Shown here: positions 51,448 through 64,000 of the stretch, piece by piece
How positions within the stretch are numbered: position 1 is the stretch's first letter
Layout of the letters: each line of letters opens with the position of its first letter
Assembly (NCBI GenBank): GCA_902756345.1
Contig: CACVQR010000001.1
Location: 124,001-188,000 of the forward strand
Reading direction: 5' to 3'
Origin: Fibrobacter succinogenes
Lineage (GTDB): Bacteria; Fibrobacterota; Fibrobacteria; Fibrobacterales; Fibrobacteraceae
Length of the DNA stretch: 64,000 nt
The notes under the pieces: generated by a model
What the model was told of the DNA's origin: nothing
The model's database searches: none
Seen by the model: only the letters and a program-made list of their open reading frames with translations
Made by a program: the position numbers and the translations under genes

Positions 51448-51536
51448 CGGGAAGAGCGAGATTCGAACTCGCGATAGGATTAAGTCCTATACGTCCTTAG
51501 CAGGGACGCGCCTTCGGCCAGCTCGGCCATCTTCCC
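51448..51536 (-). tRNA. tRNA-Ser (anticodon GCT)
   Basis: The minus strand folds as a class II tRNA of 89 nt: acceptor stem GGGAAGA/TCTTCCC, D-loop with AGCTGGCC, anticodon loop CTGCTAA (GCT, reading AGC/AGU), a long variable arm (TATAGGACTTAATCCTA) and T-arm TTCGAAT. Discriminator base is G, as in other tRNA-Ser. CCA is not encoded. Confidence 0.95.
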
Positions 51537-58049: not shown

Positions 58050-58543
58050 CGAGCCATCCACTCCTTCTCTTTTTCAAGGAACTGGTACAGCATGTATTGC
58101 AGTTCTTGCGGCGACATAGAGTCAGTCACCGTCAAAATGCTCATTCCCTTCGGGGCAACAAGCACAAAAGCCGGAAGCGCATTCAGTTCCCATACATCAA
58201 AATAACAACGTTGCACCGTTTTCTTTTGACCATCGCACATGATGGTATCTTGTGAATCGGCATTGAGCTTAACGGCATAAAAACGCGTGTTCAAAAGCGA
58301 GGCCACCGTGGGGTCGCTGTACACGTTCGCATCCATCACGCGGCAGGGAATGCACCAGTCCGCATACAAATCCACAAAAATCAGCTTCGGCCCCGTCTTC
58401 GCCTTTTCAAGCGCTTCATTGTAGCCCATCCAATGTACCATGGACTTTTTAGCAGCCTTCTTGGCAGGCACCGCATCGTTCAGGGGGGCAGCAAAAGTAA
58501 CCGAAATGCAAAGCGCTACAAGCATCAACAAACGTAAAATCAA
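58046..58543 (-). CDS. Secreted thioredoxin-fold protein
   Basis: This 165-aa protein has a signal peptide (about 1-19) and a thioredoxin-like domain with YADWCIPCRVMDANVY (CIPC active site) and the cis-proline loop ALPAFVLVAP. It resembles DsbD-gamma/thioredoxin_7 proteins that reduce disulfides in the periplasm. The start is TTG at 58543, supported by GGGAGG 7 nt upstream and by overlap with the upstream TGA; the next ATG would cut the signal peptide. Confidence 0.85.
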   Translation of the reverse strand: MILRLLMLVALCISVTFAAPLNDAVPAKKAAKKSMVHWMGYNEALEKAKTGPKLIFVDLYADWCIPCRVMDANVYSDPTVASLLNTRFYAVKLNADSQDTIMCDGQKKTVQRCYFDVWELNALPAFVLVAPKGMSILTVTDSMSPQELQYMLYQFLEKEKEWMAR

Positions 58544-59025
58544 TGTACACCTCCCTTGTGGGCGGGCATCTGGTTTTGCGGCGCCGGAATCTTCGGCAGG
58601 CGCGCCTTTGGACCATTACCCTTTTGAAGAGCCTCTTTTGCATCTACTGTCGCGGCCTGCGGAGGTGTCAGCAGAGAATCGATGCGGGCGTTTACCGCCT
58701 TCTGGAACGGCACCCACTGGCGCTCGTCATTCAAGATTTCGTCGGTTTTGGCGAGGAACTGTTCGCGGGTATAGCCCGCCGCCTTCAAAGCGTCTTGGCG
58801 CACCAGGCGACCCATCGGAGAATCCTTGCCATAAGTAATTTCGGCCACGCGCAGTTCGACAAACAAGTCTACGAACTTCTGGTCGACCGAAACTTCGCCG
58901 CTACAGCCGAAGAGACTTCCACAAAGCGCAAAAGAAATCAAAACGTAAAGGAGATGCCGGGACAAGCCCGGCATGACATGATCGGGGGCCACTATGATGT
59001 TTGCTTCTTTTTCGCTAAACTTCAT
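58540..59025 (-). CDS. Lipoprotein, possibly DUF4296-like, with embedded palindrome
   Basis: This 161-aa protein has a hydrophobic signal and lipobox (CGSLFGCSGE) preceded by an unusually long N-terminal stretch of about 25 residues. It then has a helical domain (about 50-125, KFVDLFVELRVAEITYGKD) and a Lys/Pro/Gln tail. The helical part recalls DUF4296, but this is uncertain. The N-terminal extra codons come from a palindromic repeat (58948-58980). It starts 12 nt behind the ftsY stop. An in-frame ATG at 58974 could also start a normal signal peptide. Confidence 0.75.
   Translation of the reverse strand: MKFSEKEANIIVAPDHVMPGLSRHLLYVLISFALCGSLFGCSGEVSVDQKFVDLFVELRVAEITYGKDSPMGRLVRQDALKAAGYTREQFLAKTDEILNDERQWVPFQKAVNARIDSLLTPPQAATVDAKEALQKGNGPKARLPKIPAPQNQMPAHKGGVH
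58948..58980. repeat. Palindromic repeat inside a reading frame
   Basis: AAAGGAGATGCCGGG, a short loop, CCCGGCATGACATG. It belongs to the same family as the elements at 40510 and 63237. Here it is translated (minus strand, in frame) as part of the lipoprotein N-terminus. Confidence 0.75.
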
Positions 59026-60633: not shown

Positions 60634-60766
60634 GCAAGGATTTTAAAGGATTTGCTTGCGTTTCTGGTATAAAAATTTTTTCAGCAAAAACAGGGGATAA
60701 AAACAGACACTTTGGCCCTTTTTGGCGTGTATATAAAGAGGAGGTCATAAAAAACAAAAGGACAAT

Positions 60767-60835
60767 ATGAATACGAAAAGTGACTCGCAAAACTTGAATA
60801 TGTTGACAAATTCAAATTCTTTACCTATATTCTAA
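60767..60835 (+). CDS. 22-codon leader ORF upstream of the toxin gene
   Basis: An ATG at 60767 with AAAAGGA about 5 nt upstream opens a frame of 22 codons, rich in Asn and Ser, ending TAA at 60833-60835, one base before the toxin ATG. The promoter at 60803-60831 lies inside it. It may be a leader peptide or chance; an intact start and good ribosome site favour translation. Confidence 0.4.
   Translation: MNTKSDSQNLNMLTNSNSLPIF
60803..60831 (+). promoter_or_regulatory. Consensus promoter of the second toxin-antitoxin unit
   Basis: TTGACA (60803-60808), exactly 17 nt, TATATT (60826-60831). The ATG at 60837 is 5 nt after the -10 box, so transcripts would start at or within the first codon (leaderless). 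Confidence 0.7.
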
Positions 60836-60836
60836 T

Positions 60837-61133
60837 ATGAAGTTCACTGTAGAAAAGTTGCCTGCCGCCGCTGCCGAAATTAACGCCTTGGAGCAATCTC
60901 AGAAAGAACTTCTGAACAAGGAGTACGAAACAATTGAAAAACAGGGACTAGAATATGTTCGTGTAAGACCACTTCAAAAAGAAATTTTTGAAATCAAGTC
61001 GAATGAACTACGGTCTTTGTTTAAGTACAAGGCAGGAGCGATTATTGTAATTGGAGTTGTCTTCGTAAAAAAGACACAAAAAACTCCGAAAGAAAAGATT
61101 AAACTCGCCATAAAGCGATTGAAGGAGGTTTAG
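60837..61133 (+). CDS. HigB/RelE-like toxin (Gp49-like)
   Basis: A 98-aa basic protein with the Gp49/HigB-like core LQKEIFEIKSNELRSLFKYK, IIVIGVVFVKK and a lysine-rich end. It is expected to be a ribosome-dependent mRNase. It ends TAG directly followed by the partner ATG; the partner's AAGGAGG lies within the toxin 3' end. Expression could come from the leaderless promoter or by coupling to the 22-codon leader. Confidence 0.85.
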   Translation: MKFTVEKLPAAAAEINALEQSQKELLNKEYETIEKQGLEYVRVRPLQKEIFEIKSNELRSLFKYKAGAIIVIGVVFVKKTQKTPKEKIKLAIKRLKEV

Positions 61134-61436
61134 ATGCCGTATGTTTATGTGAAAGATTCCGAAGGATTCGTATTCAAGAAAAAAGAATCGGATGTCGCTG
61201 CAGATGAAAAGATTATCTCGGAAAAAGAATATCTGAAAAAATCGGGCATTGCCCTTTACGTAAAAAAGTTCGGGCACGGCGGTGCGCGCGAAAACGCTGG
61301 TAGAAAGACAAAGTTCAGCTCCCCGTTGAAATTTCAGATTCGCGTCACGAAAGAGGAAAAGGAATTTCTTGCATTCGCAAGGAGCAACAAGCTCAATTTC
61401 GCAACTTTGATGAACCTTGCCGCGAAACTAGATTAA
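61134..61436 (+). CDS. Putative antitoxin with GGARxxAGRK motif and ribbon-helix-helix-like C-terminus
   Basis: A 100-aa protein. The N-terminal 45 residues (MPYVYVKDSEGFVFKKKE) are unknown. Around residue 50 comes GGARENAGRK, a motif seen in several phage and mobile-element proteins. The end, LKFQIRVTKEEKEFLAFARS, has the strand-helix-helix pattern of Arc/MetJ/CopG repressors. Position directly behind a toxin gene supports an antitoxin role; no XRE domain is visible, unlike usual HigA partners. Confidence 0.65.
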   Translation: MPYVYVKDSEGFVFKKKESDVAADEKIISEKEYLKKSGIALYVKKFGHGGARENAGRKTKFSSPLKFQIRVTKEEKEFLAFARSNKLNFATLMNLAAKLD

Positions 61437-61471
61437 TACTTTTCTAATTTTCGGATTCTAGGAGGTCTTCC

Positions 61472-62587
61472 ATGAAAAAGATTTTTGCGTTATTGTCTCT
61501 TTTAGCCCTGCTCGCAGCATGTGGCGATGAATCAAGTAGCTCCGCTCCCGATCCAATCGGTGAAATCTCGTCGAGTAGTAATGACGATAACGATTCTGCA
61601 TCCTCGTCTTCTCAGAAAGATTCTAAAAAATCTAGTTCCTCGGTTGCTGAAAAGAATTCTTCTAGTTCTGTAAGTGGTAAGAATAGTAGCTCGAGTGTGG
61701 TAGAGTCAAGTAGTAGTGCGCGGAATTCTAGCAGCAGTTCTGCTATTCTGTTTAAACAATGTGAAGAAGGTGATACTGTTATAAGTGAAATGGGGTTAAA
61801 TGTGTTTTATTATCGTTGCCACGATAATGAATGGGTTCTTGATTCTACTGTGAATGTTGTAAAACCCAAGGTTTATCCGAACATGGATAGCGTATTTAAT
61901 CCGGCTGTGACTTATGGTTCTTTTAAAGATCCTCGTGATGGAAAGGTTTACAAGACGGTTCAATACTATATGGAGGTCCAAAGTGGCAACACTACTGTCA
62001 TTGATTCTTTTACGGTGATGACTCAGAATCTGAATTACGCTGATACGATAATCGATAGTACAACGACGGTTTTTGATGATTCGAAGGTTGAAAAACGTTG
62101 CTACCAAGATGACCCTTGGTATTGTGACAATTATTTCGGAGCACTTTACACTTGGAGCGAAGCGTTGGGACTTCCCAAAGTGTGTGACAGCGTCGGTGTT
62201 GCAGATGACTCAAGATGTAACATAAAGCTTGGTTACGATGCTAAAGTGCAGGGTGTTTGCCCGGAAGGTTGGCATGTGATGAACGAGACTGAGTGGAAAC
62301 ACTTTGCGTCACCTCGGGGAATAGATGCTAGTTATACTATGTTGTCTCGTGCTGTATGGGAAAACGAAAAAAAGACTAATTCCAGTGGAATGTCATTACT
62401 GCCTAATGGGGATGAAAATCCGAGTAATGGTCTTGCTACGTTTTGGTTGCCTGAAGAAAAAGCTGATGATGGCCTAGGCGCCATAATAGTTAACATTTCG
62501 TCTTCTCTTATCATTTCGCCGACTTATAAGAAGGGTGCACTTCCGGTTCGCTGCGTAATGGACGAAGGCGATACATTCGTTAAGTAA
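61472..62587 (+). CDS. Ser-rich lipoprotein with F. succinogenes major paralogous domain
   Basis: This 371-aa protein has a signal and lipobox (LLAACGDESS), a Ser-rich linker (about 22-92), a small C-x-W module (CHDNEWVLDST) and a TIGR02145/PF09603 domain: FKDPRDGKVYKTV, FTVMTQNLNYAD, GVCPEGWHVMNETEW and the final LPVRCVMDEG. It is a paralogue of the lipoprotein at 48572-49741. It follows the toxin-antitoxin pair by 35 bp with TAGGAGG before the ATG and is noticeably more AT-rich than its neighbours. Confidence 0.88.
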   Translation: MKKIFALLSLLALLAACGDESSSSAPDPIGEISSSSNDDNDSASSSSQKDSKKSSSSVAEKNSSSSVSGKNSSSSVVESSSSARNSSSSSAILFKQCEEGDTVISEMGLNVFYYRCHDNEWVLDSTVNVVKPKVYPNMDSVFNPAVTYGSFKDPRDGKVYKTVQYYMEVQSGNTTVIDSFTVMTQNLNYADTIIDSTTTVFDDSKVEKRCYQDDPWYCDNYFGALYTWSEALGLPKVCDSVGVADDSRCNIKLGYDAKVQGVCPEGWHVMNETEWKHFASPRGIDASYTMLSRAVWENEKKTNSSGMSLLPNGDENPSNGLATFWLPEEKADDGLGAIIVNISSSLIISPTYKKGALPVRCVMDEGDTFVK

Positions 62588-63380
62588 AAATTTTAACAAA
62601 AAAACAAGTTAGTGATTTCGATAAATGCGTAAGGCGAGTGAAACAGGATTGCTTGCAAGCCTATTTCCGAGCCTAGCATTTAGTACGTAGTACAATCCGT
62701 GTGGCCTTTTTAGCATGCATCAAAGGAGGTCCCACCTTGGTGGCCATGCGCACTAAGCACTAAAAGTGCTAAGTGCTGTCCGCCCGGCCTTCGCCGGGAA
62801 GACAACGGGAGTGGCATGCCCAAAGGCGGAAGAAGATAAGTCGTTGAGCGAACATTCGTCGGCCGAAGGCCGAGGCCATGTGAGCTTAAAGCCCCATGCG
62901 TTAAGCTGGGGCTGTGGCGAGAGTGAGGCGAAATCGACTATTCTTTTTTGCGATAGAGCCGAACGGTCTTGATGGCGTGCGGAGCAGGCTGAGCCGGAGC
63001 GCTTTTTTTTCGGACATGAAAAGCTGATGCCGATTTCCATCGGCATGACGCGGGCGGGGAAAGGAGGTGCCGCATCGAGTGCGGCAAGACAGTGAGCAAT
63101 TCATTCCACACGGCTCATTTCTGGAGCCGTGGGCATTTTGAATTTGGGGTCTTAGGGGCAACGCCCCTAGGCGAGAAGGTAGCGGATGCCGCACACGGCA
63201 GAAGCGAGGGAGAGACTTCTCCCTTTTCATGCATCAAAGGAGGTGCCGGGTCTACGCCCGGCATGACAGCGGGCAGAACCCCTCCCCCCCTTCAACATAA
63301 GCATATTTTTTTCAGTTTTATGTTCCACTGCCCATAAAAAATATACATTATGGGTGTAAACCCTTATTTTTAGGACACTT
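62588..63380. other. Gene-free region dense in hairpins
   Basis: About 790 bp without a convincing gene. It holds a 61-nt hairpin (TAAATGC 62622-62628 to GCATTTA 62676-62682, with a CTTGCAAG tip). Further stems are GCACTTAGC-type (62751-62777), CCCGGC/GCCGGG (62782-62798), AGCCCC/GGGGCT (62890-62914), ATGCCGAT/ATCGGCAT (63027-63046), GCCGCA/TGCGGC (63069-63085), CACGGCTC/GAGCCGTG (63108-63132), AGGGGC/GCCCCT (63153-63168) and GCCGGG/CCCGGC (63244-63262). A 17-bp CATGCATCAAAGGAGGT occurs at 62714 and 63228. Minus-strand frames here read palindromes and look spurious. Confidence 0.75.
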
Positions 63381-64000
63381 ATGGCATTTATTCGTGCAAT
63401 TTTCTACTACTTGTTCATTGGAGTAGGGCTTTTCGTTGTCGGTCTTCCGTTCATGTTTTACAAGGGCGTGCTTTGCAGGCGCTGGGCAGACAGCACCCGC
63501 ATATGCATCCCGTTTTTCCAGGTTTTGTTCAAGTTGTCGGGAATCAAGGTCGAAATCGAAGGCAAGGAGAACATTCCGGACCACAAGAAGTTCGTGCTCA
63601 TAGCCAACCACCAGAGTTTTTTGGACATCAACGTCATTTGGCCCTCGATTACCATGACCTCGTTCATTGCGAAGGCGGAACTCTGGAAGATTCCCGTGTT
63701 CGGCTGGGTCTTGACTAAAATCGGCTGCATTCCGGTGCACAAGAACCCGCGCAAGAACCTAGGCATGGGTGCTGTCGTGAAAAAGCGCCTCGAAGACAAC
63801 GTGACCATTTCGGTGTTCCCCGAAGGACATCGCAGCAACGACGGGCACATGCTCCCGTTCCAGAACGGCATTTTCCGCATGGCCAAGGAAAACAAGTTTC
63901 CGCTCCTGCCGGTGACGCTTGTGGATACGGGCAAGCGGCTTTCCAAGACCAAGTGGGCGCAGACCCCGGGTGTGGTAAAGATTGTGGTGCACCCGCTCCA
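63381..64000 (+). CDS. plsC: 1-acyl-glycerol-3-phosphate acyltransferase (PlsC-like), 3' end outside window
   Basis: A frame from ATG 63381 to the window edge (206 codons). After an N-terminal hydrophobic helix (IFYYLFIGVGLFVVGL) come the acyltransferase motifs NHQSFLD (NHX4D, near residue 77) and VFPEGHRSNDG (near 147), with GCIPVHKNPRKN between them. It should add the second acyl chain in phospholipid synthesis at the inner membrane. AGGAC lies just upstream of the start. Confidence 0.9.
   Translation, partial: MAFIRAIFYYLFIGVGLFVVGLPFMFYKGVLCRRWADSTRICIPFFQVLFKLSGIKVEIEGKENIPDHKKFVLIANHQSFLDINVIWPSITMTSFIAKAELWKIPVFGWVLTKIGCIPVHKNPRKNLGMGAVVKKRLEDNVTISVFPEGHRSNDGHMLPFQNGIFRMAKENKFPLLPVTLVDTGKRLSKTKWAQTPGVVKIVVHPL

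Follow-up and report, generated by a model that had tools for sequence, protein, structure and literature searches.

A hairpin-packed intergenic island in Fibrobacter succinogenes as a probable mosaic of small palindromic elements, one of which lies within the hairpins of others

The hairpin-packed island downstream of a lipoprotein gene in Fibrobacter succinogenes is very probably (we put the probability at about 0.88) an intergenic mosaic, which grew as small, non-autonomous palindromic elements of DNA arrived repeatedly 3' of that gene. Its modules belong to dispersed families that occur in locus-specific combinations and are present or missing at orthologous sites; their hairpins are maintained by compensatory changes; and one of them, element B, is found within hairpins belonging to other families, 3' of CC(C) and in a single direction relative to the REP it occupies. 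The island lies in a 64-kb stretch of the genome, referred to here as the window.

Results

Extent and content of the island

The gap is bounded by the stop codon of the lipoprotein ORF (61472-62587) and, at 63381, by the start of a plsC-like acyltransferase gene. The original prediction described this interval as gene-free and packed with at least nine separate stem-loops, and both descriptions are borne out. Counting perfect, non-overlapping hairpins with a stem of at least 6 and a loop of 3-10, we found 11 in the 793-bp gap, compared with 1.4 ± 1.1 (maximum 7) in 300 dinucleotide shuffles of it and five in the runner-up 793-bp tile of the window. The MFE z-scores against 60 shuffles were -4.3 for the plus strand and -7.1 for the minus strand. 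A credible gene is absent from the island: its small ORFs, the longest of 109 aa, have no Pfam match and overlap repeat sequence.

The coordinates 62588-63380 are correct for the gap, and the nest proper is narrower (approximately 62602-63289). The remainder at the 3' end, some 90 bp (63290-63380, plus strand), is the leader of the plsC-like gene; it is conserved in relatives (L050-L053), among them those without the insert, and no further copies of it were found in the same genome. An AT-rich hairpin at 63331-63354 falls within this leader, outside the nest.

Dispersed modules

A search of the same genome gave about 60 matches to the island, and when the matching loci were aligned with it, each base from 62602 to 63274 proved to be duplicated at least once elsewhere in the genome. 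The match boundaries recur at fixed points, and modules A to F were defined from them, with copy numbers derived from genome searches and retrieved stretches. Every hairpin of the nest could be assigned to a dispersed family, in agreement with the earlier suggestion of a nest of palindromic elements. Of 41 Fibrobacter genomes, 39 contain the modules; a class-wide sample showed them more thinly in some sister genera within the family and, beyond it, weakly in one of 15 sampled genomes.

Module A (62619-62681, plus strand) is a 63-bp imperfect palindrome with variable stems and the conserved motifs AAGGCGAG..CTTGC..CGAGCC; six copies from this genome were aligned and many more occur across the genus. 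The linker GTACGTAGTACAATCCGTGTGGCCTTTTTAGCATGCATCAAA (62682-62724, plus strand) is found again at other loci, including the orthologous locus of relative G005. REP 1 (62725-62804, minus strand) is split by element B (62734-62785, plus strand), so that the REP halves flank B. Module C (CATGCCCAAAGGCGGAAGAA...GGCCGAAGGCC; 62795-62885, plus strand) has seven aligned copies from this genome, which usually adjoin a REP directly, and is followed by module D, a 92-bp unit (62879-62970, minus strand). Module E (62975-63135, plus strand) is a composite of a T8-bearing hairpin, REP 2, REP 3 and a CACGGCTC/GAGCCGTG hairpin, and has one 98% identical counterpart (C10:135258-135416) as well as further partial ones. 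The module F hairpin GGGGTCTTAGGGGCAACGCCCCTAGGCGAG (63143-63183, plus strand; eight aligned copies from this genome) is a target of B insertion in other genomes. The AGGGAGAGACTTCTCCCT hairpin (63207-63224) is common to C19:58420-58720. A further hairpin type, GGGCGTTCCCC..GGGTCGGGCTATATT, was seen at several loci (L058 minus strand, approximately 2000-2100) and is also a B target; it may resemble motifs from Bacteroidales. Several contigs of this genome (C2, C7, C8, C10, C19, C23 and C26 of G000) end in or near these repeats, which therefore probably break the assembly.

CGTC-tagged REPs are defined by a CGTC or TGTC tag, an 8-9-bp stem that almost invariably starts with AT and a 4-5-nt loop; their tails are unpaired and most, not all, fit CCA (PMC3733652). 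They are present in many copies, extragenic and mostly 3' of genes, and the five phyla listed for them do not include Fibrobacteres (PMC3733652). The island contains four REPs of this type. REP 2 (CGTCATGCCGATGGAAATCGGCATCAGC; 63023-63050, minus strand) agrees exactly in stem and loop, with a CGTC tag, an 8-bp stem starting AT and a 4-nt loop, and REP 3 (TGTCTTGCCGCACTCGATGCGGCACCTCC; 63063-63091, minus strand) and REP 4 (TGTCATGCCGGGCGTAGACCCGGCACCTCC; 63239-63268, minus strand) deviate a little in the outer pair or in the loop. REPs 1, 3 and 4 carry the TGTC tag. The island tails are short, CTCC or CAGC (ACCTCC in REP 1), where most published tails fit CCA. Judged on sequence, the four hairpins thus fit the CGTC-tagged superfamily by its main defining features, the usual tail excepted. 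A strict REP pattern had 24 matches in this genome against one in a reversed control; these are mostly canonical GGAGAT..ATGACA hairpins with a few other hairpins among them, giving about 20 strict copies, and the REP stems differ widely in sequence while complementarity is kept. Elsewhere in the window, a solitary canonical CGTC-type REP (GGAGATGCCGGGACAAGCCCGGCATGACA; 58950-58978) overlaps the start region of a minus-strand ORF (58540-59025).

Module D and the orientation of repeats relative to genes

Module D consists of a constant half and a covarying two-part hairpin, and tandem, head-to-tail copies are found elsewhere. A covariance model (R1), built from 13 copies with the island copy (92.9 bits) among them, has 53 hits in this genome. 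Covariation is 0.270 compared with 0.110 in shuffles, none of 500 shuffles being as high. One reading of the island copy resembled a C-terminal tail, but the idea that D encodes the end of a protein was rejected because the frame is interrupted or different across copies and the unit comes after stop codons.

The covariation could also reflect a role at the RNA level, and such a role for module D is possible because several copies start at a stop codon in sense with the gene. More broadly, some modules, D above all, might be 3' UTR elements that act in mRNA stability or termination, having been retained for this function while duplication spread them. This would agree with the copies of D that begin at, or within a few bases of, a stop codon and are mostly sense to the upstream gene, with the covarying hairpin and with the tandem arrays. 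However, we consider it unlikely, because other D copies come after terminator-like hairpins or antisense genes, the island copy is antisense to both flanking genes and element B shows no orientation bias. Relative to the gene with the nearest 3' end, B is on the same strand in 26 cases and on the opposite strand in 27, which speaks against B acting as a strand-specific RNA. The gene pairs around B sites are tandem in 29, convergent in 24 and divergent in 7 of 60 cases, so that B-carrying sites are depleted between divergent genes; these gene-context counts are approximate, as ORF-based calls are rough in repeats and 29 B copies were called inside ORFs.

Element B lies within the hairpins of other repeats

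Element B is a net insertion of 51 bp in most copies and 52 bp in the island. It is laid out as ACCTTGGTGGCCATGCGCACTA, a variable stem-loop-stem and TAAGTGCTGTCCGCCC, and comprises a CCACC/GGTGG hairpin, a covarying hairpin and a terminal CCGCCC. A strict pattern finds 11 copies in this genome. The 18-base core of B, searched across approximately 85,000 species genomes, yielded 102 stretches, nearly all from Fibrobacter; 18-mers in Planctomycetota, Chitinophaga, Bacteroidetes and Acidobacteriaceae were set aside as chance matches, the remainder of B being missing. A complete B inside a REP-like hairpin was also present on a contig of a rumen Treponema MAG (L080:3727-3777), presumably through either lateral transfer or mis-binning. 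A long autonomous relative of B was also sought among left ends of B that lacked a right end nearby, in all retrieved loci, but these proved to be small nested insertions, truncated copies, a related variant or matches due to chance.

B sits in a hairpin belonging to another repeat at 88 of the 92 distinct sites (REP or REP-like hairpins at 64, F- or GTTGCGGGG-type hairpins at 21 and a GGGCGTT hairpin at three), and its left neighbour is CCC, again at 88 of the 92. Among joined sites, 93% have a paired junction, compared with 61% of control CCC sites, and the REP tag lies to the right of B in 67 cases and to the left in none. Covariation of the B hairpin is 0.213, against 0.099 in shuffles (0 of 500 as high), and is also above that of all slid versions of the structure. 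Covariation, which had been proposed as a check, is found in the stems of single modules, both B and D. The nesting extends to three levels: an element of approximately 50 bp, H, lies inside B at L059 (1591-1690), L155 (1016) and L156 (minus strand, 1399), and module A does so at L146 (minus strand, 3753), in each case in the loop of a B that is itself within a REP.

The invariant direction of B relative to the REP tag would also be expected if B and REP moved as one composite, their constant position going back to one ancestral insertion, after which the two spread together. This seems improbable, since B also occurs in at least two unrelated hairpin families, the stems of its host REPs differ, and an RHS-type gene of relative G025 (a 397-aa ORF) carries B in frame (L047:1502-1552), adding 17 residues compared with its paralogues. 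Furthermore, orthologous sites have REPs without B. In the alignment with G005, an uninterrupted REP lies exactly at the position of B in the window; at another locus G003 and G005 are empty, G010 has an inverted REP, G030 a REP and this genome a REP with B; and at a second locus this genome has a REP with B where G033 has the REP without B, between flanks that are 98% identical.

The locus in relatives

The island is part of a variable segment between clpP and plsC (60645-63299), which contains toxin-antitoxin-like genes, a FISUMP lipoprotein gene and the island itself. The toxin-antitoxin-like pair comprises a Gp49/RelE-like toxin (PF05973) and a small partner that matched no family. Comparison of the same locus in other Fibrobacter strains, a further check that had been proposed, showed the whole insert to be missing in G003, G030 and G010 (L050, L051 and L052), where the clpP and plsC flanks abut; this absence is compatible with gain or loss. 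In G005 (L053) the filling is different: an Rpn-family nuclease/putative transposase gene (PF12784/TIGR01784; L053:711-1499), another lipoprotein gene and a different mosaic of the same modules. The original prediction had placed the island beside a toxin-antitoxin and a lipoprotein, and these do share one variable segment with it, but there is no sign that the genes move with the repeats.

These comparisons bear on whether the island is one large gene for a structured non-coding RNA made up of tandem stem-loops, as had also been proposed. Both strands fold strongly and the stems of modules B and D covary, yet we regard a large RNA as very unlikely: the modules are solitary and reordered at other places, the segment is missing from the orthologous locus in three relatives, and the lack of orientation bias of B to genes also stands against it. 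In the island the best Rfam score was 14 bits where 40 were required, and no sigma-70 promoter- or terminator-like site was found; in the whole window only a tRNA (51448-51536) exceeded its gathering score.

A last suggestion makes the segment an integron-like cassette, in which the hairpins would be attC sites next to the toxin-antitoxin-like and lipoprotein genes. It fits a variable segment with such genes and palindromes, but is highly improbable, as the hairpins are short dispersed REP-type units and no integron integrase was found above cut-off in this genome (IntI, TIGR02249; best 76.7 bits against 265). Thus, the idea of the island as a recombination target survives in that its hairpins serve as landing sites for other hairpins, and not as an integron-type target. 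RAYT and IS110 origins were likewise searched for in this genome and none was found: there was no match to the Y1 tyrosine transposase (PF01797; RAYT/IS200), for which 5 of 14 control genomes were positive, or to the IS110 transposase (PF02371), which 2 of 21 genomes searched possess.

Discussion

The mosaic reading suggests a stepwise build-up, in which non-autonomous palindromes would arrive downstream of genes and their hairpins would become targets for further hairpins. A trans-acting enzyme may recognize the folded form of the target, whether single-stranded or cruciform. Regions after stop codons would collect such elements, presumably because insertion there does little harm. Transcription of the gene could then give a 3' end bearing hairpins that may affect mRNA stability; this is a putative consequence, and we do not claim it as their function. 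As a tentative proposal, with a real but minority chance of being right, Fibrobacter may possess a hairpin-in-hairpin transposition system, in which palindromes of approximately 50 bp would be inserted directionally into the folded stems and loops of other palindromes by a putative enzyme outside the Y1, IS110 and integron types, producing nests at least three levels deep (REP, then B, then H or A).

The REP literature leaves open by what means CGTC-type REPs spread, given that no transposase is known for them (PMC3733652). As B is sharply defined (51 bp, 3' of CC(C), one direction, in hairpins) and has filled and empty sites in close relatives, its enzyme could be sought. For annotation, such islands should be taken neither for single RNAs nor for genes, and they tend to break assemblies. 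A literature search with little coverage of subscription journals found no paper on such repeats in Fibrobacter.

Several known systems resemble parts of what is described here. The very small mobile repeats of cyanobacteria (SDRs) are tens of bases long, are inserted in otherwise identical sequence and are in some cases nested; B shares these traits but differs in lineage, in sequence and in its directional hairpin-arm target. Rickettsia palindromic elements (RPEs) sit in coding frames, and B is like them in being a short palindrome and, in the RHS-type gene of G025, in its coding-frame location; however, B is 51 bp and prefers the hairpins of other repeats, and the likeness drawn here is one of description. 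Two types of RPE are themselves CGTC REPs (PMC3733652). The Fibrobacter REPs are like the CGTC REPs in tag, AT-initiated stem, short loop and tail, apparent location 3' of genes and lack of a dedicated transposase (Di Nocera et al., 2013, PMC3733652), but differ in having a CTCC or CAGC tail rather than CCA and in hosting other inserted elements. Finally, the mosaic intergenic regions based on dRS3 in Neisseria (cited in PMC3733652) and enterobacterial BIMEs also have REP-type hairpins clustered between genes and interspersed with repeats of other families, although in the island the non-REP modules are largely specific to Fibrobacteraceae and hairpins are inserted inside hairpins. The island therefore acts like, and partly consists of, REP mosaics; what sets it apart is the set of Fibrobacter-specific modules and the hairpin-in-hairpin insertion of element B.
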